Assembly: GCA_913050245.1 (NCBI GenBank)
Contig: CAJWZJ010000004.1
Coordinates: 1-64,000, forward strand
Direction: 5' to 3'
Length of the DNA stretch: 64,000 bases
Source: an uncultured bacterium
Lineage (GTDB): Bacteria; Desulfobacterota_D; UBA1144
This document shows, one piece after another, positions 12,161 to 17,188 of this stretch. Made by a program: the position numbers and the translations under genes. The stretch's first letter is position 1. Each line of letters starts with the position of its first letter. Under the pieces are notes generated by a model. The model was not told where the DNA came from and made no database searches. It saw only the letters and a list, made by a program, of their open reading frames with translations.

Positions 12161-12901
12161 ATGATTACGCGAGAATATGATGAATTTATTTGTTTAGTGA
12201 GCCAGCATGATCATGCAAAAATTTCACTCGACATATTTAATTTTTTTCGAGAAGAAATAAAGAAAAATACTAAAAATTTAGAGGCTTTACAGTACTCAAT
12301 CAGGAATCATGATTCAGGGTGGATTGAGTTTGATCTTCATCCAAAAATCTCAAATGATAACAAAGTTTTTACTTTTCAAGATATTGATGTTCAATTGCAA
12401 GATGATTTATGGTTAAAAAGTATCTCATCATCGATAAACCCTTATTCATCTTTTTTAATTTATAAGCATTTTAGATATCTGTGTGAAAATTCATCACGTG
12501 ATAAAAATGATAAAGAGAATTTTATTAAAAGCTGCGAAAGATTAATAGATGAACGAATAATAGATGATAAAAAAAATATAATTGATAGTGAGGAGTTTAA
12601 ATTTGAATTAAGTTCATTGCAGATTTGTGATTTAATATCTTTAATTATTTGTAGAGAGAAAGTTATGGGGGGGAATAGTCCATTCCTACATATCAACTCT
12701 GTGAATAGTTTAGATTGTAGTATTAAGAAAGTTGATAAATCAGTGTATAAATTGAATTCAAAAATTTTTGCAAAAAAAGAAAATTTTGTTGAAATTCCTT
12801 ATAAGCAAATTGAATCAGAGTTGATCATGACACCAAAGAAGTTCAAAAGAGCATTTATTGAATATCCAATGAAATATAGAAAATTATATTTAATTACTTA
12901 A
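12161..12901 (+). CDS. DUF3891 family protein
   Basis: Protein of 246 residues resembling DUF3891. The N terminus reads REYDEFICLVSQHDHAKIS (family pattern of a Q-x-D-H-A segment), and RNHDSGWIEFD carries the conserved His-Asp pair. The helical arrangement of conserved His and Asp residues resembles HD-domain proteins, so a metal-dependent hydrolase is conceivable but unproven. It is a single gene whose 3' end overlaps that of the convergent acyl-CoA synthetase by 8 bp. Confidence 0.72.
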   Translation: MITREYDEFICLVSQHDHAKISLDIFNFFREEIKKNTKNLEALQYSIRNHDSGWIEFDLHPKISNDNKVFTFQDIDVQLQDDLWLKSISSSINPYSSFLIYKHFRYLCENSSRDKNDKENFIKSCERLIDERIIDDKKNIIDSEEFKFELSSLQICDLISLIICREKVMGGNSPFLHINSVNSLDCSIKKVDKSVYKLNSKIFAKKENFVEIPYKQIESELIMTPKKFKRAFIEYPMKYRKLYLIT

Positions 12902-14429
12902 TTTTTTCATATTTATCTAAATTAATATTATTTAAAAACCCCCTTTTTATTTTTTGAGTTGATGTTTTTTCAAAACTAATATCTGTAAGATAAATTCCTG
13001 ATATCCTTTTAAATTTTTCAGTTCTATTATTAATTCCATCAACTATTTCAATTATTCGTTTATGAGATATTTTATTAAATTCATCACTAAGTTTAATTAA
13101 AGTTAATATTTTCTTTTGATCTACACTAAAAACAATTGATTCTTCAATTTCAACTTCAATATTTATCATCTCTTCAATTTCTTCTGGATAAATATTCTCT
13201 CCACTAGAGCTAATAATTACAAATTTTTCTCTTCCTGTTATATATAAATATCCTTCACTATCAAACCTGCCAATGTCACCAGTATTTAGATATTCATCTT
13301 GAAGCGTTTCAGATGTTGCATCCTCATTTTTATAATATCCTTCAAATATATTTGGACCTTTAACTTTTATTGTGCCATTTCCATATTGATCACTATCATC
13401 AATTTTTACATTACATCCATCAATAACTTTTCCAACTGAGCCCACTTTTTTCCTCTCCAGGGGATTTACTGAAACTAGGGGTGAGGCCTCTGAGAGCCCA
13501 TACCCTTGAATTATTTTCAATCCAATATTATCAAAAAAATTCTCAATTTCTGGACTTAATGCAGCACCCCCGCAAAAGAAAAATCTTAGTCTTTTAAGGC
13601 CCAGCTTCTTCTTAAATATAAAACCAAAAAGTTTTGGCAATTTTCTATGTAGAAGACTTAAAATACTGGAACTATTCAACTTTTTATTGATTCCTTGATA
13701 TATTTTTTCCAGCAACAGAGGTACAACAGGAAAAATATTTGGTTCAATTAAATTAAGTTCTTTGCTTATAGTCCTCAAATCTAAGCCTGAGCAAAAATGT
13801 ATTGAATTACCAAGATTAATATTAACCAAAACATTACAAGTAAGTTCATAAACATGGCTTAAGGGTAAGACTGAAAAACTTTTCAATTTTCCTTCTTTTT
13901 TTAGTAAGTTAGAAATTTGAGTTAAATTTGAGATCAGATTATTGTGTGAGAGCATAACTCCTTTTGGACTTCCTGTTGTCCCAGATGTATAAAGTATAAC
14001 TGCGATTTCTTCTTTTATTTTAGGAATAACAAATTCTTTTGAAGGCTGCTTGCAAATTTCAATAATATTCTCAAATGATAAAGTGTTATGTTTATTTCTT
14101 AAATCATCATTACTTATTAGTAATGATGATTCTGATAAATTTATAATATCCAATGTTGTTTTTTCATTTGCCCTATAATCAATTGGAACACAAATATGTC
14201 CGGATTTTAAAATACCAAAAAAAGCTATTATCCACCCAACGGAATTCTCGCCTTTAATTGCTATTTTAGATCCAATCTTTATATTCATAGATTTTAATTT
14301 TTGTGCAAAATTATCAGAATATTTATTTATTTGAGAATAGGTAAGCTCAACCAATTTACCTTTCCTAACTTCAGAGAATGCAATTCTTGAATCTTCAGGA
14401 TTTTTCAATATTTCCTGTAAGCGATACAT
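12894..14429 (-). CDS. AMP-dependent acyl-CoA synthetase/ligase
   Basis: ANL-family adenylating enzyme that activates a carboxylic acid as acyl-AMP and transfers it to CoA. Motifs in order: A3 P-loop LYTSGTTGSPKGVMLSH, A5 QGYGLSEASP, A7 LNTGDIGRFDSEGYLYITGR and a C-terminal lid with the catalytic-lysine region around TSTQKIKRG. About 511 residues from the chosen start. The ORF track begins 22 codons further upstream, but the normal N terminus starts at MYRLQEIL, and the extra leader (ATIVPNFKFF) is translated from the intergenic region holding the amt promoter. The motif set resembles fatty-acyl-CoA ligases; the substrate is unknown. Confidence 0.85.
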   Translation of the reverse strand: MYRLQEILKNPEDSRIAFSEVRKGKLVELTYSQINKYSDNFAQKLKSMNIKIGSKIAIKGENSVGWIIAFFGILKSGHICVPIDYRANEKTTLDIINLSESSLLISNDDLRNKHNTLSFENIIEICKQPSKEFVIPKIKEEIAVILYTSGTTGSPKGVMLSHNNLISNLTQISNLLKKEGKLKSFSVLPLSHVYELTCNVLVNINLGNSIHFCSGLDLRTISKELNLIEPNIFPVVPLLLEKIYQGINKKLNSSSILSLLHRKLPKLFGFIFKKKLGLKRLRFFFCGGAALSPEIENFFDNIGLKIIQGYGLSEASPLVSVNPLERKKVGSVGKVIDGCNVKIDDSDQYGNGTIKVKGPNIFEGYYKNEDATSETLQDEYLNTGDIGRFDSEGYLYITGREKFVIISSSGENIYPEEIEEMINIEVEIEESIVFSVDQKKILTLIKLSDEFNKISHKRIIEIVDGINNRTEKFKRISGIYLTDISFEKTSTQKIKRGFLNNINLDKYEKIK

Positions 14430-14477: not shown

Positions 14478-14493
14478 TGGCACGATGGTTGCC
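14478..14493 (+). promoter_or_regulatory. sigma-54-type -24/-12 promoter for the first amt gene
   Basis: The sequence TGGCACGATGGTTGCC matches the RpoN consensus TGGCAC-N5-TTGC with correct spacing. The TTGC (14489-14492) lies exactly 40 nt upstream of the ATG at 14529, placing the expected transcription start near 14503. A strong ribosome-binding site (aaaggaggg) follows. Nitrogen control through NtrC acting on RpoN is the known pattern for amt genes; no NtrC site was identified nearby. Confidence 0.8.
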
Positions 14494-14528
14494 ACAGTAA
14501 AGTAAAAAAAGAGTTAAAGGAGGGAAAT

Positions 14529-15818
14529 ATGGGTAAATTTAAATTTAAGAATTTTTTCGTATTTCTATCATTAGGTTTTCTAACGTTGTTCTTAACAGGC
14601 TCAGCGTCAGCTTCAAACAGTCCTGATGAAACAGCATTTATTTTTAATACTTTGTTATTTTTAATTTGTGGTTTCTTAGTAATGTGGATGGCTGCGGGCT
14701 TTGCTATGTTAGAGGCCGGAATGGTAAGATCAAAAAACGTATCAACAATATGCCTTAAAAACGTAGGTTTATATGCAATTTCTGGCATAATGTTTTATTT
14801 AGTTGGCTACAATCTAGCTTATGGAATTGCTGAAGGTGGTTACATGGGTTCGTTTACTATGTTTGCACCAGGTGAAGACATATCCACTGGTTATGCATCA
14901 CATTCAGACTGGTTCTTCCAAATGGTTTTCTGTGCAACAACAGTATCAATCGTTTCTGGAACTATTGCAGAAAGAATTAAAGTTTGGTCTTTTTTCGTTT
15001 TTGCAGCAATTTTAGCTGGAATTATTTATCCAATCGAAATGGGTTGGCAATGGGGTGGAGGCTGGTTATCAGCAATGGGATTTTCTGACTTTGCTGGATC
15101 AACTCTTGTTCATGCCGCAGGTGGAGCTGCCGCTCTTGCTGGAGCAATTATAATCGGTCCAAGACTTGGCCGCTTTAAAGATGGCAAAGCTATTCCAATA
15201 CCTGCATCTAGCATACCTCTTGCAACTTTAGGAACTTTTATTCTATGGCTTGGATGGTTTGGTTTTAATGGAGGATCTCAGCTCGCAATTGGTACTCTTG
15301 ATGATGCCGCCGCAGTCTCAGATATATTCGTTAATACGAATTTAGCAGCCTGTGCAGGATTAATTGTAGCAATGATAATTTCTCAAGTGATGTTTGGAAA
15401 AGTTGATGTGACTTTTGCACTCAATGGAGCTTTAGCAGGATTAGTTTCTATTACAGCAGAGCCTTTGGCGCCAACTGCAACTACGTCAATGATGATTGGT
15501 GGAATTGGTGGAATCATAGCCGTTTTTGGAACTAAATTTTTTGAAAGTATTCAAGTTGATGATGTCGTTGGAGCGTTACCGGTTCATTTACTAGCTGGTA
15601 TTTGGGGCACGGTAGCAGTTGCAATTTCTAATGATGCAACATCTTTCACAACTCAGTTGATTGGTTCTTTATCAGTTATCGGATTTGTGTTCGCACTATC
15701 GGCGATAGTCTTTGGTTTACTTAAAGCAACAATAGGTTTAAGACCATCAGCTGAAGAAGAAGAATTAGGATCAGACGCTGTAGAGGTTGGAATAGAGTCT
15801 TATCCATATTTTAAATAA
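14529..15818 (+). CDS. amt: ammonium transporter, Amt family (EAGMVRSKN type)
   Basis: Inner-membrane ammonium channel, 429 residues. An N-terminal signal peptide (about 1-28, ending TGSASA) precedes roughly eleven transmembrane helices. The pore twin-histidines are seen in STLVHAAGG and GALPVHLLAG, and the binding-site Asp precedes the first in SDFAGS. The first helix carries AMLEAGMVRSKNV rather than the FYGGLVR form, so this is a different Amt subfamily from the gene that follows. Its C-terminal tail is EEEELGSDAVEVGIESYPYF. Preceded by a sigma-54 promoter and a near-perfect Shine-Dalgarno, it is very probably induced under nitrogen limitation. No glnK/glnB accompanies it. Confidence 0.95.
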   Translation: MGKFKFKNFFVFLSLGFLTLFLTGSASASNSPDETAFIFNTLLFLICGFLVMWMAAGFAMLEAGMVRSKNVSTICLKNVGLYAISGIMFYLVGYNLAYGIAEGGYMGSFTMFAPGEDISTGYASHSDWFFQMVFCATTVSIVSGTIAERIKVWSFFVFAAILAGIIYPIEMGWQWGGGWLSAMGFSDFAGSTLVHAAGGAAALAGAIIIGPRLGRFKDGKAIPIPASSIPLATLGTFILWLGWFGFNGGSQLAIGTLDDAAAVSDIFVNTNLAACAGLIVAMIISQVMFGKVDVTFALNGALAGLVSITAEPLAPTATTSMMIGGIGGIIAVFGTKFFESIQVDDVVGALPVHLLAGIWGTVAVAISNDATSFTTQLIGSLSVIGFVFALSAIVFGLLKATIGLRPSAEEEELGSDAVEVGIESYPYFK

Positions 15819-15861
15819 ATTGATACCTCTCTAATAAATACCTAGCCTATATCTCCTTGGT

Positions 15862-15900
15862 AGGCAAATAAGCATGCCCCTTGTGGCATGCTTATTGCCT
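15862..15900 (+). terminator. hairpin between the two amt genes, likely terminator of the first
   Basis: Perfect 12-bp stem aataagcatgcc (15867-15878) and ggcatgcttatt (15885-15896) around a 6-nt loop. It is extended by aggc/gcct past a single bulged A (15866) to 16 bp, then a short T run (tttt at 15900-15903). This fits an intrinsic terminator with a weak U-tract. The right arm overlaps the -24/-12 element of the next gene, so the same DNA serves both purposes. Confidence 0.65.
15884..15899 (+). promoter_or_regulatory. sigma-54-type -24/-12 promoter for the second amt gene
   Basis: TGGCATGCTTATTGCC keeps the RpoN pattern TGGCAY-N5-TTGC with correct spacing. TTGC (15895-15898) is exactly 40 nt upstream of the ATG at 15935, the same offset as in the first amt gene. 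The expected start site is near 15909. It coincides with the right arm of the intergenic hairpin, so its resemblance to a promoter could in principle be partly fortuitous, but the identical offset argues against that. Confidence 0.65.
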
Positions 15901-15934
15901 TTTAAATAATTAGGCTATATCAAGGAGAAAATAT

Positions 15935-17188
15935 ATGCTTAAATTTAGTTTGAGGAACTTGGTCCTGTTCCTTTTTTTCGGCGTTTTAACGCTGTTAGGA
16001 CAAAATTCGATCGCTTCTAGCGGTCTTGATTCGGGAGATAGCTCCTGGATTTTAACTTCAACAGCTCTAGTGCTTTTTATGACATTACCAGGTCTTGCTC
16101 TTTTTTATGGAGGTTTAGTTAGATCTAGAAATGTTTTATCCGTTTTTATGCATTGTATTGCTGTTGCATGTTTAATGTCAATTTTATGGGTTTTATTGGG
16201 CTATTCTATAGCATTCGGTGAAAATACAAGCCCATATTTTGGTGGTTTTTCTAAAGTATTTCTAAATGGGATTACTTCTGATAGTTTAATTGGAACAATT
16301 CCAGAATATGTTTTTGCAGGATTTCAGATGGTTTTTGCCGTTATTACTCCAGCATTGATAATAGGAGCATATGTCGAAAGAGTTAAGTTCTCATTTGTTC
16401 TTTTATTCTCTGCTTTATGGATGATTTTGTGTTACTCGCCTGTTACTTATTGGGTTTGGGGAGGAGGATTCCTTTTTGAACTTGGTACTGTTGATTTAGC
16501 CGGTGGGCTTGTAGTACATGAAACAGCAGGGCTTGCTGCTTTAGTTGTTGCAGTTTTTCTTGGGTCAAGGAATGACAAAACAAAGCCTCCTCATAATCCT
16601 GGATATGTGATGTTAGGTGCATCAATGTTATGGGTTGGGTGGTTTGGTTTTAATGCTGGCTCGCAACTTGCAGCTAATGGTAGTGCTGGACTAACATTAC
16701 TTGTTACTCATTTATCTGCGGCGTCGGCGTCGCTATCTTGGGCTGCTTATGAATATATTAAATATGGACGCTCATCATTAGTAGGCTTAGTGACAGGAAC
16801 TATTGCTGGCCTTGCCACTATAACTCCAGCTTCTGGTTCAGTATCCCCAATAGAAGCTATTATAATCGGCTCATTTGCTGGAATAGTATGTCAGGAAATG
16901 TGTTCTATCATTAAGAATAAGTTTAATACAGACGACTCTCTTGATGTATTTGCTGTTCATGGTTTTGGGGGAATATTGGGAACATTATCAATCGCAGTAT
17001 TTGGCCATGCTGGATGGTATGAGCAATTATTTGGAGTAATATCTGTAGGCATATTTACAGTAATAGTAACGGTATTAATAGTTATTGTATGTATTCAATT
17101 TGTAGGTATAAGGGTCACGTCAGATGAAGAAAATAGCGGACTTGATCTCTCAGAACATGGAGAAAAGGCTTACGATATGAATAGTTAA
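15935..17188 (+). CDS. amt: ammonium transporter, Amt family (FYGGLVRSRN type)
   Basis: Second ammonium channel, 417 residues, with an N-terminal signal-like segment (about 1-28) and about eleven membrane helices. Canonical AmtB features are LALFYGGLVRSRNVL in the first helix, pore histidines in GLVVHETAG and VFAVHGFGG, and the C-terminal GlnK-contact motif SEHGEKAY. The start has Shine-Dalgarno aaggag (15922-15927) with 7-nt spacing. The gene follows the first amt by 116 bp and has its own sigma-54-like promoter. The two paralogues belong to different branches and are unlikely to be a recent duplication. No PII gene is adjacent. Confidence 0.95.
   Translation: MLKFSLRNLVLFLFFGVLTLLGQNSIASSGLDSGDSSWILTSTALVLFMTLPGLALFYGGLVRSRNVLSVFMHCIAVACLMSILWVLLGYSIAFGENTSPYFGGFSKVFLNGITSDSLIGTIPEYVFAGFQMVFAVITPALIIGAYVERVKFSFVLLFSALWMILCYSPVTYWVWGGGFLFELGTVDLAGGLVVHETAGLAALVVAVFLGSRNDKTKPPHNPGYVMLGASMLWVGWFGFNAGSQLAANGSAGLTLLVTHLSAASASLSWAAYEYIKYGRSSLVGLVTGTIAGLATITPASGSVSPIEAIIIGSFAGIVCQEMCSIIKNKFNTDDSLDVFAVHGFGGILGTLSIAVFGHAGWYEQLFGVISVGIFTVIVTVLIVIVCIQFVGIRVTSDEENSGLDLSEHGEKAYDMNS

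Follow-up and report, generated by a model that had tools for sequence, protein, structure and literature searches.

Predicted sigma-54 promoters at two unlike ammonium transporter genes and a degenerate NtrC serving a putative minimal nitrogen regulon in a family of small-genomed bacteria

Introduction

Among the closest known counterparts of the locus described herein is the NtrB-NtrC/sigma-54 system of enterobacteria, which acts on glnK-amtB and glnA. The present locus is similar in its -24/-12 elements, rpoN, NtrB, GAFTGA-containing NtrC, P-II protein and targets. However, it differs in having one P-II gene, placed in a glnB-glnA pair, and two unlike amt genes with one site each, in a regulon of approximately three transcription units. 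Moreover, no enhancer is recognisable, and the helix-turn-helix (HTH) of NtrC is degenerate.

Sigma-54 activators that dispense with upstream DNA have been described in other bacteria. FlgR of H. pylori and CtcC of Chlamydia have no DNA-binding domain, whereas Rrp2 of Borrelia keeps this domain and does not need upstream DNA (PMC1976401, PMC3162934); Borrelia and Chlamydia each have one sigma-54 activator (PMC3162934). Like the NtrC studied here, these proteins occur in reduced genomes, and the present NtrC may resemble them in activating without an enhancer. Their roles are in flagellar, developmental or virulence functions of host-bound bacteria, whereas the present protein is a true NtrC, associated with nitrogen genes, in bacteria with no stated host. 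Its DNA-binding domain is decayed rather than deleted, and in that respect Rrp2 is the closest case. In addition, NtrC that is defective in DNA binding can activate from solution when its concentration is high (North and Kustu 1997, cited in PMC1976401 and PMC12421884). As portrayed in these citing papers, the laboratory mutants combine defective DNA binding with intact receiver and AAA+ domains, as the family NtrC appears to do, but they need raised protein levels, and the loss considered here would be natural and family-wide. SAR11 (Pelagibacter) likewise has a streamlined genome with amt under a two-component system. That system is NtrY-NtrX, and to our knowledge SAR11 lacks rpoN; sigma-54 is kept in the lineage studied here.

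In the present study, two amt genes were analysed in a 64,000-nt stretch of DNA from an uncultured bacterium (the window), together with the rest of its 798-kb genome and its family, represented by 14 genomes of about 0.8-1.1 Mb each.

Results

The features of the locus are collected in Table 1. As reported in the preliminary description, both 16-mers satisfy the pattern TGGCAY-N5-TTGC, and in both the TTGC (starting at 14489 and 15895) begins 40 nt before the ATG (14529 and 15935). In each site, GG and GC are 10 nt apart. The equal spacing had been taken as meaningful; in relatives, TTGC and ATG of amt1 are 38-44 nt apart in 12 of 13 genomes (and 36 or 21 nt apart in G008, which has two possible starts), the distance ranges over 30-119 nt for amt2-type genes and 91-101 nt for glnB, and the agreement at 40 nt is therefore a coincidence of this genome and carries no signal. 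The view of the two genes as an old pair from different subfamilies was borne out, since the proteins are 29% identical and fall into separate NCBIfam families (TIGR03644 and TIGR00836), which argues against a recent tandem copy. The nearest named relatives of amt2 are from Rhodobacterales (62-66%), a result that reflects the amt2 gene alone. The ATG (14429) of the divergent AMP-binding gene lies 49 nt from site 1; because this gene adjoins the site, any amt1 enhancer would be confined to the gene or to the 49-nt gap. No riboswitch or other known RNA was found at the amt genes in an Rfam scan of the window and 11 related loci.

Table 1. Features of the amt1-amt2 locus (positions in the window)
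Feature	Position	Strand	Remarks
Divergent AMP-binding (acyl-CoA synthetase-like) gene	12894..14429	-	ORF; function predicted from sequence
Putative sigma-54 -24/-12 element of amt1 (site 1)	14478..14493	+	TGGCACGATGGTTGCC; exact consensus; predicted transcription start ~14504
amt1 Shine-Dalgarno AGGAGGG	14518..14524	+	Read from the sequence
amt1, marine-subtype ammonium transporter	14529..15818	+	NCBIfam TIGR03644, 568 bits vs cut-off 514
Block ACCTAGCCTATATCTCCTTGGTAGGC in the amt1 3' UTR	15840..15865	+	Unchanged in four of the five species of the genus, core kept in the fifth
Terminator-like amt1 hairpin	15863..15903	+	Arms 15863-15878 and 15885-15899, then TTTT; z = -4.2 for 15800-15935; homologous hairpin in G001-G003
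Putative sigma-54 -24/-12 element of amt2 (site 2)	15884..15899	+	TGGCATGCTTATTGCC; exact consensus; predicted transcription start ~15910
amt2 Shine-Dalgarno AAGGAG	15922..15927	+	Read from the sequence
amt2, canonical AmtB-type ammonium transporter	15935..17188	+	NCBIfam TIGR00836, 379 bits vs cut-off 343

The two sites exceed the chance expectation by far. A first-order Markov model built on the window predicts 1.4 occurrences of TGGCAY-N5-TTGC and 0.17 of TGGCAYG-N4-TTGC per strand-Mb, and any given 150-nt upstream stretch would contain an exact N5 site by chance with a probability of about 2e-4. The whole 798-kb genome contains exactly two matches to the longer pattern, and these are sites 1 and 2. 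Allowing one mismatch gave 12 matches in this genome, and only the three known ones were exact as far as TTGCC. A third exact N5 match in the window (32002, minus strand) falls within the coding sequence of a DNA glycosylase and was rejected as background.

A further site precedes glnB-glnA, where glnB stands beside glnA. Across the 14 family genomes, 65 exact TGGCAY-N5-TTGC matches were placed against the ORFs; 26 lie within genes and 39 are intergenic. Among the intergenic matches, 34 stand before amt (21) or glnB (13), and the remaining five share no recurring target. The matches outside amt and glnB number 31, approximately the chance expectation of the Markov model, and amt and glnB-glnA therefore form the conserved core of the regulon. 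As judged from these matches, they are essentially the whole recognisable sigma-54 regulon, and weaker or diverged sites may exist elsewhere. The amt1 site is kept in all 13 family genomes that have amt1. Comparable exact sites are missing at the amt genes of families f2 and f3, which have only weak ones with two mismatches. Separately, two f2 genomes (G014 and G015; L185, L186) have an exact sigma-54-type site before an isocitrate/isopropylmalate dehydrogenase-like gene, and the f2 regulon seems to differ from that of the family studied here. The glnB leaders of several family members (L201 upstream of 587, L202, L209, L212, L204 and others) contain a conserved (T)ATGTCATAATATT between the sigma-54 site and glnB, which is missing in those of G001 and G002. 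It resembles a sigma-70 -10 region, and tandem promoters may be present at glnB-glnA.

The corresponding machinery was observed throughout the family. The rpoN gene, present in all 14 genomes, lies on the same contig approximately 4 kb beyond the window in this genome, and its product retains the three sigma-54 domains (activator-interacting, core-binding and DNA-binding) intact. Each of the 14 genomes has exactly one full sigma-54 activator (EBP). The activator of this genome is an NtrC, encoded directly downstream of NtrB and composed of receiver, AAA+/GAFTGA and lid domains. The P-II gene is located before glnA. GlnD was found in 11 of the 14 genomes and not in this assembly, which is 80% complete. 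As a side observation, rpoN is followed just beyond the window (L001 148-2814, contig C4) by ptsN, a short HprK and an EIIA-man gene; the HprK consists of the C-terminal domain only, the rpoN and ptsN ORFs overlap, and no hpf lies between them.

The activator is, by its receiver, AAA+ domain, GAFTGA motif and NtrB neighbour, clearly an NtrC by ancestry, in a variant without the Pfam HTH_8 domain. This domain was detected in none of the 14 family genomes, compared with 41 of 42 rpoN-bearing genomes outside the family. In the NtrC of this genome it was not found even at E 10, and the isolated C-terminal 85 residues were also negative; in several family members the C-terminal 85 residues show sub-threshold similarity to HTH_8 (E 0.004-0.15). 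Among solved structures, NtrC1 and NtrC4 come closest, before NtrX; in the alignment with NtrC1 (4l4u, whose construct includes the DNA-binding domain), the sequence match ends at residue 378. G000 and G004, which belong to one genus, share 80% identity in the AAA+ domain and 29% in the HTH; for the outside families f2 and f5, the corresponding values are 63% and 71%. Within the family, the HTH helices are no less variable than the linker: entropy is 1.86 and 1.72 in the helices, 1.75 in the linker and 0.65 in the AAA+ domain. Since the HTH diverges while the AAA+ domain stays conserved, the decay is selective. The recognition helix reads NRNTLSKK in outside NtrCs and VSDEFDVL in this genome, where its net charge is -3 over 11 residues, and it varies among the species of one genus (NNKDFDKL, VSDEFDVL, HSKEFEEK).

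The DNA-binding domain is thus degenerate in sequence, and its fold is predicted to persist: the AlphaFold model retains three HTH helices (422-441, 446-453 and 457-466), with pLDDT mostly 87-90. Helix A is fairly conserved, and in genera g2 and g5 the recognition helix is still positively charged. With the fold, helix A and these basic helices retained, lineage-specific or weak DNA binding is possible. In family f2, genomes with a single activator keep a normal HTH, which indicates that being the lone activator permits the loss of the HTH and does not force it.

The NtrC dyad (TGCACY-N5-RGTGCA type) was sought with one consensus in 34 upstream stretches of 160 nt each, two of them cut to 84-108 nt by contig ends; matches upstream of the sites were no better than in shuffles (4.62 vs 4.77 mismatches). 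A de novo search of the same 34 stretches revealed no dyad common to the amt and glnB upstreams. In L047, a gammaproteobacterial control locus that has a sigma-54 site, a dyad with two mismatches was recovered and none of 60 shuffles was as good; this was the one clear case in a small positive control of six loci.

Site 2 overlaps the terminator of amt1, and its 16-mer coincides with the 3' arm of the hairpin. The perfect 16-mer is identical before amt2 in G000 and G004, the two genus members that have amt2. In G001-G003, of the same genus and without amt2, the homologous hairpin still ends amt1; none of these three has the -24 T, and two of them have also lost the -12 TTGC. Thus, in this genus the terminator arm would double as a promoter where amt2 is present. 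In other genera (G005, G011, G013 and G008), the site is a separate element after the terminator and before the next amt. In G007 (L206) and G009 (L280), amt2 begins a short distance beyond the amt1 terminator; it lacks a sigma-54 site, its N-terminus is shortened, and its start looks as if the leader and promoter had been deleted.

Two further observations concern the RNA of this gap. In the genus of G000-G004 (L214, L291, L292 and L293 for G001-G004), the non-coding ACCTAGCCTATATCTCCTTGGTAGGC block is identical in four species, and its CTCCTTGG core is kept in the fifth and in genus g4 (TACCTCCTTGG); the position is always just before the terminator. Its CTCCTT can pair with the amt2 Shine-Dalgarno over 8 nt in G000 and 10 nt in G004, and the block could hide the amt2 start in RNA that reads through the terminator, or give rise to a small RNA from the 3' UTR. 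In the amt1-amt2 gap of L208 (G005), L277 (G011) and L213 (G008), the terminator loop is CCTAGCTTT or CCTAGCTTTTAC, and the amt2 leader contains a conserved complement of 9-12 nt, AAAGCTAGG or GTAAAAGCTAGG; no Rfam family matches.

Discussion

Several predictions of the preliminary description have been strengthened in the present study. Sigma-54 control of both amt genes is supported by the conserved sites, rpoN and NtrC. The -24/-12 blocks are conserved at the amt genes throughout the family; rpoN and an NtrC-like activator, predicted for a streamlined genome, are present in this genome and throughout the family; and the search it had proposed for glnK/glnB led to a glnB with its own sigma-54 site beside glnA. 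Concerning the activator, the forecast was right in that an NtrC exists, but the degeneracy of its DNA-binding domain had escaped notice, as had the overlap of site 2 with the amt1 terminator hairpin. The proposal that the two amt genes are separately switchable is not supported, because one full activator per genome would serve both promoters.

Herein, we propose that the amt and glnB-glnA genes are controlled by sigma-54 promoters and a single NtrC, in a minimal regulon activated without enhancers, an explanation to which we assign, as a whole, a probability of about 0.7. Nitrogen shortage would be sensed by GlnB (with GlnD) and relayed through NtrB to NtrC. RNA polymerase-sigma-54 would hold closed complexes at the amt1, amt2 and glnB promoters, and phosphorylated NtrC would open them at all three, so that both transporters and glutamine synthetase would rise together. 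With a single activator and few promoters, the -24/-12 element would carry the address; NtrC would then most likely need no defined enhancer, working either in solution or by loose, non-specific contacts with DNA. With the address supplied by sigma-54, the enhancer step would have become dispensable. That the sites are used in the cell, that nitrogen is the signal and that activation is enhancer-independent are inferences from sequence. The parts of this proposal differ in strength. Site 1 is almost certainly a sigma-54 promoter, NtrC is very probably the activator of both sites, and site 2 is quite probably a promoter as well; that no specific enhancer is used is only somewhat favoured. The fullest form of the proposal, in which specific DNA binding by NtrC has been lost naturally throughout the family, the amt and glnB-glnA regulon is activated from solution, and the amt1 terminator of this genus is the amt2 promoter, might be judged at even odds.

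Other explanations have to be considered. Although background matches exist among the exact matches of this genome, it is hardly credible that both sites arose by chance and that the amt genes run from sigma-70 promoters, given that the sites are conserved at amt and glnB over five genera and that rpoN and NtrC are present. It is also very improbable that different activators switch the two amt promoters independently, as had initially been suggested. The promoters are indeed two, with a terminator between amt1 and amt2, but each of the 14 family genomes has one full sigma-54 activator; this assembly is only 80% complete, yet relatives at 88-94% likewise show one. Since there is a single activator per genome, both promoters would answer to the same NtrB-NtrC, and amt1 and amt2 would be separate transcription units under one signal. 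A stronger doubt concerns site 2, which might be no promoter but a terminator arm that matches the consensus by chance, with amt2 expressed by read-through or from another promoter. The strength of the hairpin and its TTTT tail, its homologues after amt1 in three species that all lack amt2, and the two genomes in which amt2 follows amt1 without any site speak for this reading. We consider it improbable, however, because the perfect 16-mer tracks amt2, decaying in the species without amt2 while the hairpin is kept, and because four genomes have separate sites after the terminator and before the next amt.

The most serious alternative is that NtrC acts in the ordinary way, bound to specific upstream enhancers through a new lineage-specific preference that the consensus search missed. 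The retained HTH geometry and dimer helix, the basic recognition helix in several genera and the persistent sub-threshold HTH_8 similarity are in keeping with such binding. However, the recognition helix is not constant even within one genus and is acidic in this genome, the amt and glnB upstreams have no dyad in common, and only 49 nt separate site 1 from the divergent gene. Therefore, specific enhancer binding appears rather unlikely, and activation of the sigma-54 promoters by an enhancer-free NtrC is preferred.

The promoters themselves are ordinary, and the degenerate NtrC on a minimal regulon is the part that deserves specialist attention. Small free-living genomes shed regulators, and this lineage retains sigma-54, NtrB and NtrC for approximately three transcription units. 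Taking up ammonium when nitrogen is scarce therefore seems to merit a whole dedicated switch. The family thus offers a natural minimal system for probing the purpose of the DNA-binding domain, with a regulon small enough for complete testing in a heterologous host. If the proposal is true, an archetypal enhancer-binding protein can drop enhancer binding once it is the sole remaining activator, and the regulon would be defined by sigma-54 promoter recognition alone.
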